Shown here piece by piece: positions 18,439-18,690 of a DNA stretch of 44,050 nucleotides. Position 1 is the first letter of the stretch. Every line of letters begins with the position of its first letter. Both the position numbers and the translations under genes were made by a program. The DNA comes from an uncultured Alphaproteobacteria bacterium (GTDB taxonomy: Bacteria; Pseudomonadota; Alphaproteobacteria; HIMB59; GCA-002718135). The DNA is taken from positions 1 to 44,050 of the forward strand of contig CACOVJ010000008.1 of assembly GCA_902630465.1 (NCBI GenBank), read 5' to 3'. A model generated the notes under the pieces. That model was not told where the DNA came from, did no database searches, and was given only the letters and a program-made list of their open reading frames with translations.

Positions 18439-18450
18439 AATTGCAAAAAA

Positions 18451-18504
18451 GAATCTTTAAGCAGTTATGGAATCAGGTCAATCGACTTATCAACAAGACG
18501 AATC
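18451..18504. promoter_or_regulatory. Cluster of three GANTC sites upstream of ccrM
   Basis: GAATC (GATTC on the other strand) occurs at 18451-18455, 18470-18474 and 18500-18504, within 66 bp of the ccrM start. GANTC is the substrate of the adjacent enzyme. In Caulobacter, methylation of GANTC sites in the ccrM promoter region lowers its transcription. Exact promoter elements were not assigned; TTGATA with an 18-nt spacer to CATAAC on the minus strand is one possibility. Confidence 0.6.
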
Positions 18505-18544
18505 TTTTCATTGGGATAAGAGAGAATTTTTTGTAAAAAAACAT

Positions 18545-18572
18545 AAAAAAAAGGGGAGTCTAGCGACTCCCC
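18545..18572 (-). terminator. Intrinsic terminator of the small RNA (and possibly of rnhB)
   Basis: Read on the minus strand, an 8-bp perfect stem GGGGAGTC / GACTCCCC with a 4-nt loop (plus 18553-18572) is followed by eight T (18552-18545). It would end both the small RNA and any read-through from the moaB-rnhB genes. Confidence 0.88.
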
Positions 18573-18603
18573 ATAAAATCATCAAATGGGAGGAATGATG
18601 ATT
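18545..18603 (-). ncRNA. Candidate small RNA with an anti-Shine-Dalgarno loop
   Basis: On the minus strand a predicted 59-nt RNA starts at about 18603. A perfect 8-bp stem (AATCATCA / TGATGATT, plus positions 18577-18584 and 18596-18603) displays the loop UUCCUCCCAUU, which is complementary to ribosome binding sites. A 10-nt linker leads to a perfect GC-rich terminator. A near-consensus promoter ends 3 bp upstream of the first base. The layout resembles the alphaproteobacterial small RNAs with CCUCC-type loops (cuckoo/CcsR and alpha-r families), but I cannot place it in a named family. It lies between rnhB and ccrM in a 252-bp gap that holds no protein gene. Confidence 0.68.
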
Positions 18604-18606
18604 AAT

Positions 18607-18636
18607 ATTATATAAGTTTTCAAATATCTATTTCAA
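18607..18636 (-). promoter_or_regulatory. Predicted sigma-70 promoter of the small RNA
   Basis: On the minus strand, TTGAAA (18636-18631) and a perfect TATAAT (18612-18607) are separated by 18 nt. The predicted start falls at about 18603-18601, at the first base of the anti-Shine-Dalgarno hairpin. It is one of the best promoter matches seen in the window. Confidence 0.65.
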
Positions 18637-18690
18637 TTATGTTCAAGCTATAATTATTATGCAATAATTGCATAATAAGAAAATGTGATT

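Follow-up and report, generated by a model that had tools for sequence, protein, structure and literature searches.

The RNA gene between rnhB and ccrM

The window analyzed here, a 44,050-nucleotide stretch of a contig from an uncultured alphaproteobacterium, contains a predicted RNA gene of approximately 59 nt on its minus strand (18545-18603), located between rnhB and ccrM and equipped with a sigma-70-like promoter. The covariance model R2, described below, matches the element at 18535-18610 with 78.6 bits. The predicted RNA opens with an 8-bp hairpin (hairpin 1, 18577-18603) whose arms, AAUCAUCA (18603-18596) and UGAUGAUU (18584-18577), pair perfectly around the 11-nt loop UUCCUCCCAUU (18595-18585), and this loop carries the anti-Shine-Dalgarno core UCCUCCC (18594-18588). 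A 4-nt linker, UUAU (18573-18576), leads to an 8-bp terminator stem-loop, GGGGAGUC-GCUA-GACUCCCC (18553-18572), and a run of eight T (18545-18552). Compensatory changes were found in 4 of the 6 core pairs of hairpin 1, and 3 of 6 core pairs in the terminator stem change on both sides. Upstream lie a -35-like TTGAAA (18631-18636) and, after an 18-nt spacer, a TATAAT -10 element (18607-18612), both identified as consensus matches only. Hairpin, terminator and TTGAAA-N18-TATAAT had been listed in a preliminary description of this DNA and are all there, base for base.

Between 17300 and 19900 the scan found 19 promoters, compared to 11.9 expected in shuffles, and this one was the best (11/12); the terminator was one of 4, with 0.8 expected. 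The 59-mer folds at -22.3 kcal/mol (z = -6.18), a value equaled by none of 200 shuffles. Because the element is conserved with compensatory changes, it is not a product of chance. The proposal of a small RNA gene that exposes an anti-Shine-Dalgarno sequence in its loop is supported by conserved structure and loop; there is very little doubt that this is a real RNA gene, and it is previously undescribed. The 5' end had been placed at the first base of a perfect 8-bp hairpin. The hairpin is perfect, and a start exactly at 18603 is a prediction: the -10 element lies just 4 nt before it, and a start at +7 would cost the stem approximately 3 bp. A short reading frame on the other strand (ATGATGAAA behind GGGAGGAA) was considered as a gene and rejected because early stops in three loci (L003, L021 and L023) indicate that it is not conserved.

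Conservation at two loci

A BLASTN search in 60 relatives returned 21 loci of the same genus with the element (L004-L024), and these were combined with the window copy (L003) into model R1 (22 sequences). In 13 loci from a second clade of the genus (L063-L074 and L076) and in the genus g6 (L077), the RNA has another stem and lies at another locus. The flanks of this second locus were read for L063, where the RNA is flanked by an acyltransferase and ETF-QO, and for L077, where it lies between a similar acyltransferase and a neighbor read as GlpX. The stem at the second locus, GAUUUAAUAUU/AAUAUUUAAAUC, is wholly different from UCAUCA/UGAUGA, and the loop core UUCCUCCCA is unchanged. Retention of the loop with compensating stem changes had been named beforehand as a check on the RNA, and these two loci with the same UUCCUCCCA core bear it out.

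The same core is identical in 33/33 host and phage sequences of alignment A3, the rows of which were gathered by the string TCCTCCCA. These 33 rows (27 distinct) were kept out of 37; L024, L075 and L080 were excluded for loop indels and L175 as a duplicate. Across the six pairs of the hairpin core 94.4% of positions were paired and 4 pairs change on both sides. Covariation was 0.602, compared to 0.226 in shuffles (0/500 as high) and no more than 0.206 in slid controls, and for host sequences only, over both helices, 98.7% were paired with a covariation of 0.535 versus 0.250. The covariation counts are, however, inflated by relatedness, and as the stems fall into just four or five types, few independent changes lie behind them.

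Model R2 was built from 19 host sequences representing both clades and the second genus. Across the 110 genomes of the family it had matches at E<=0.001 in 82 (>=54 bits in 81), with a single match per genome; a match of 37 bits was seen in G083. Because many genomes of the family are merely 55-90% complete, the misses are not proof of absence. Among 385 class-wide genomes, R2 gave clear matches in just two, G000 and G112, which belong to the same genus as the window. Of the weaker class-level matches outside the family, the 13 inspected (L482-L494) resemble plain terminators; a UCCUCCC loop was present in 0/13 and CCUCC lay near one of them. Scanning the species-genome collection for exact copies of CATCATTCCTCCCAWTTGATG turned up 61 stretches, each from a record titled uncultured Alphaproteobacteria or Pelagibacteraceae. 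The hairpin records are single-cell genomes and MAGs of marine alphaproteobacteria, which probably belong to the AEGEAN-169/HIMB59 group. Excerpts of a study that used GORG-TROPICS single-cell genomes equate AEGEAN-169 with SAR11 subclade V/HIMB59 (PMC10308909).

The second locus also bears on what the element could be in relation to its neighbors. The RNA is on the same strand as ccrM, approximately 107 nt upstream of the ccrM ORF, as an attenuator or leader acting in cis on ccrM would be. However, in clade 2 and genus g6 the RNA is found at the other locus, in G079 (L075) a 309-aa ORF on the opposite strand separates it from ccrM, and the terminator and its T-run are complete. Cis control of ccrM is largely refuted by the second locus and is very improbable. 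Given the other neighbors at the second locus and the ORF interposed in G079, the adjacency to ccrM is incidental, and ccrM is a lineage-specific neighbor only. The RNA also follows rnhB closely on the same strand, which would fit an rnhB terminator accompanied by a chance hairpin. However, the loop, the stem pairing and the upstream dyad described below are kept at the second locus, which has no rnhB, and the hairpin occurs in phages; these findings refute the terminator reading, which is hardly credible.

The promoter dyad and the question of GANTC control

The intergenic gap had been described as holding nothing else, but it contains an exact 15-bp dyad, ATGCA-N5-TGCAT (18659-18673, no strand assigned), and, on the ccrM side of the RNA, three GATTC sites. 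The dyad is the core of a 25-bp palindrome and a putative transcription factor site. Within one mismatch it was present in 63/63 distinct upstream regions of the ccrM locus, in 61 of them exactly (shuffled mean 0.16%), and upstream of the RNA in 13/13 second-clade loci (12 exact); genus g6 has two mismatches. The copy at 18659-18673 is the sole exact occurrence in the window, where 0.10 would be expected. A factor that binds this dyad, a regulator predicted from its site, probably controls the RNA promoter.

Control through GANTC, proposed from the proximity to ccrM, did not hold up. GANTC is missing from 62/63 distinct ccrM-locus upstream regions and from 14/14 upstream regions of the second locus, and both the second locus and the interposed ORF in G079 argue against a link to ccrM. 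The three GATTC sites (18439-18544) probably belong to ccrM as part of its promoter region.

Three minor features of this locus were also noted. The terminator in the window contains two GANTC words that are absent from the GGGGUC-type terminators of relatives. A block, TTATTATGCTTCAAAAAGATGCGACAAA, is common to most ccrM-locus promoters (L004-L024); the window, L078, L079 and L081 are among those without it. In several relatives the sequence ATCAAATGGGAG, in the HQMGAK codons of ccrM, is a 12-nt perfect complement of the RNA loop and 3' arm (e.g. in L015, approximately 1.1 kb past the RNA in the 3' part of the ccrM coding region), and the window encodes HQVGAK; this complementarity may be chance.

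Relationship to known small RNAs and Hfq

The element had no match in Rfam at the gathering threshold. AniS (RF02274) scored 29.3 bits (E 0.0016) against a cutoff of 50, and the alphaR8 family (RF00519 suhB; MmgR in Sinorhizobium; SisA-D in Caulobacter), second in the Rfam list by E-value, scored 18.3 bits against a cutoff of 41. Membership in an alphaproteobacterial anti-Shine-Dalgarno family had been suggested earlier with a covariance search as the check, and the search went against it. RF00519 was above its cutoff in 0/162 genomes of the order (one control was above it), and UCCUCCC was present at none of the ten best weak matches in the order. Hfq (PF17209) was likewise found in 0/162 genomes, with positive Caulobacter and E. 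coli controls.

A diverged member of alphaR8 does have points in its favor. The window RNA shares the CCUCCC anti-Shine-Dalgarno core and an alphaproteobacterial host with that family, and like that family it has a Rho-independent terminator. Compared to the alphaR8 core UUUCCUCCCU, the window has AUUCCUCCCA and clade 2 has UUUCCUCCCA, which is 9/10 identical. However, excerpts of PMC12559287 describe the alphaR8 core as single-stranded, placed after a weak hairpin, and working with Hfq, whereas CCUCCC here is closed within a hairpin loop in an approximately 59-nt RNA from an order in which Hfq was not found. The gene neighbors differ as well: the main alphaR8 copy is linked to an N-formylglutamate amidohydrolase gene, while this RNA lies beside RNase HII and an N6/N4 methylase in the window and an acyltransferase and ETF-QO in L063. 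We consider descent from alphaR8 quite unlikely.

UCCC or C-rich motifs within hairpin loops, which pair with G-rich sites close to start codons, are found in LhrC, sX13, RNAIII and RsaE, and the window RNA likewise presents UUCCUCCC in the loop of hairpin 1. In excerpts of the respective papers, Hfq is dispensable for Listeria LhrC on lapB (PMC4132741), Hfq is dispensable for the C-rich-loop sRNA sX13 of Xanthomonas (PMC3771888), and staphylococcal RNAIII and RsaE are cited as belonging to the same class (PMC4132741/PMC3771888). No homology to these RNAs is claimed; the window RNA has one loop, a different predicted target class and an alphaproteobacterial host. Its architecture is nearer to Hfq-free C-rich-loop RNAs such as LhrC and sX13 than to alphaR8. 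In excerpted sources AbcR1/2 and GcvB are sRNAs that regulate ABC transporter genes, resembling the targets predicted here. AbcR1/2 and GcvB act on solute-binding proteins; they are Hfq-dependent and longer, and they use other pairing sequences. Titles and abstract openings, with full texts limited to those under open license, mention neither an anti-Shine-Dalgarno RNA in this group nor a phage copy of one, and the main text of a Pelagibacter RNA paper (PMC2704228) contains none of the terms 'Shine-Dalgarno', 'sRNA' and 'ccrM'.

Predicted targets and proposed mechanism

The sequence GGGAGGAA at ribosome-binding positions was found chiefly ahead of genes for signal-peptide proteins. For the control AAAGGAGG, 4 of the 30 loci inspected had a start and an ORF after it, 2 of which were judged to be real starts. 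GGAGGAA-N1-6-ATG occurred 22, 40 and 30 times in three genomes, compared to 4, 12 and 8 for the reversed pattern. When genes with a GGAGGAA site were counted in G000 and G112 (ORF >=100 aa with an upstream in-frame stop; the site at the RNA itself in G000 left out, and the 30 sites of G099 outside the count), Pfam called solute-binding proteins in 7/10 and 17/20, respectively (24/30 together). The remaining genes were PhyH (2), KARI (2), RpsB (1) and one without a family. In an unselected set comprising all 21 PF01547 matches in the same two genomes, 17/21 had GGAGG within 20 nt upstream of the first ATG, whereas it preceded the start in 0/36 window ORFs of >=120 aa. Judged by these window genes, the lineage seems to reserve strong Shine-Dalgarno sites for a small class of genes. 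The median RNA duplex energy was -16.3 for the PF01547 genes and -5.45 for the window genes, a difference matched by 0/200 shuffled RNAs, though a 16S tail separates the two gene sets equally well. Any CCUCC can pair with a Shine-Dalgarno sequence. Compared by hand, the 5' arm is complementary to the target consensus on its start-codon side as well, as an example duplex illustrates.

The distribution of GGAGG was then compared over 400 kb in each of two genomes, using first-ATG start calls, which are crude and lower the GGAGG counts. In G112, GGAGG lay ahead of 2/2 SBP-like ORFs and 3/337 other ORFs, one of which resembles a missed solute-binding protein. In G037, a genome of the sister family, it lay ahead of 4/4 SBP-like and 13/323 other ORFs, several of the 13 again resembling missed solute-binding proteins. 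G037 has only weak model matches (29.4 bits with R2), the counterparts of which in G038 and G039 are plain terminators, and the noncoding DNA of the same G037 stretches yielded two weakly folding CCUCC hairpin loops, both without a visible terminator hairpin. As strong GGAGG sites are present in G037, where no RNA was detected, they predate or do not need the RNA, and with 4/4 such genes there bearing GGAGG, the strong sites at solute-binding proteins may simply reflect the abundance of these proteins.

An alternative is a real anti-Shine-Dalgarno RNA that works mainly by being bound, in the manner of a sponge or decoy, or that acts on some other target, with the match to solute-binding proteins reflecting only where strong Shine-Dalgarno sites occur. 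The sister-family genome is consistent with this, and titration of a CCUCC RNA has a precedent in Caulobacter, where CrfA acts as a sponge for the CCUCC-bearing SisA-D (excerpts of PMC12559287). However, GGAGG in G112 is nearly confined to solute-binding proteins, so any Shine-Dalgarno pairing would fall chiefly on them, and the complementarity of the 5' arm extends to the start-codon side. A sponge, decoy or other target is unlikely as the main role, though less so than the alphaR8 reading. In excerpts of the same paper SisA binds a TonB receptor mRNA ahead of its start codon, and this receptor likewise serves nutrient uptake (PMC12559287).

The reading favored here is repression of solute-binding proteins. 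From the conserved structure, loop and dyad, the failure to detect Hfq in the order and the match between the loop and the ribosome-binding sites, we infer that a stand-alone, Hfq-independent small RNA gene is transcribed from its own promoter, probably through a factor on the ATGCA-N5-TGCAT dyad. Hairpin 1 would offer UUCCUCCCA in its closed loop, and the loop, followed by the opened 5' arm, would pair in vivo with mRNAs that encode periplasmic solute-binding proteins, covering their GGAGGAA ribosome-binding sites and start codons, so that ribosome entry would be blocked. Taken as a whole, this proposal of Hfq-free repression is somewhat better than an even bet. The earlier suggestion that the RNA could act on many mRNAs is in keeping with it, as the predicted set consists of solute-binding proteins and the loop matches their GGAGGAA sites. 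A single Hfq-free RNA that recognizes the starts of many solute-binding-protein genes would amount to one brake on nutrient uptake, and the AEGEAN-169/HIMB59 group consists of streamlined bacteria that live on the uptake of dissolved nutrients.

Phage copies of the hairpin

The most surprising part of this analysis is the presence of the hairpin in phages. It was found in at least 19 IMG/VR contigs (L174-L180, L254, L505 and L565-L574) in two stem versions. Seven contigs came from an exact scan for the clade 2 type (8 matches, of which L181 was without the unit), L254 was reached via TerL, and 11 carry the second type (UCAUAAU/AUUAUGA). In these seawater viruses the RNA lies directly before the DNA-packaging gene terL in 19/19 contigs, with the ORF starting 54-88 nt after the start of the loop core. 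The host-only model R2 gives 33-54 bits on the 12 distinct phage contigs searched; its matches at four other phage loci (L280, L283, L285 and L286) were rejected as terminators. Among 25 loci with a TerL of >=80% identity, the RNA precedes terL in 8. In type A, 8/8 have a promoter in which an 18-nt spacer separates TTGACA or TCGACA from TATAAA, and for type B TTGACA was seen in L259 only, of four contigs scanned. No good T-run follows the second hairpin of the phage element, most markedly in type B, and the phage element may therefore be a terL leader and not a separate RNA.

The presumed host of these phages is deduced from the shared RNA. GGAGG was absent before ORF starts in L176 (0/16) and L504 (0/15). 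It is possible, though doubtful, that marine phages infecting these bacteria have captured the host silencer of nutrient uptake and express an anti-Shine-Dalgarno hairpin before terL that silences host solute-binding proteins, while phage genes, which are without GGAGG where examined, escape. On this reading the hairpin versions of the two phage subgroups would resemble those of two different host clades. According to excerpts of PMC12197685, the phage sRNAs AgvB and AsxR are likewise phage-encoded RNAs acting on host post-transcriptional control; these are anti-sRNAs, whereas the phage hairpin here is a near copy of the hairpin of a host RNA. The retention of so similar a hairpin ahead of terL, together with the compensated change in the stem of a second subgroup, would connect infection with nutrient uptake. 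A phage copy serving as an attachment site is disfavored, as the version B stem differs from all host loci compared by eye; no integrase was recognized in L176 or L504 from ORF lists and partial family scans. In L176, TerS, TerL, portal and endolysin were recognized, and its TerL reaches no more than 45.3% identity to any of the deposited phages listed, which include pelagiphages.
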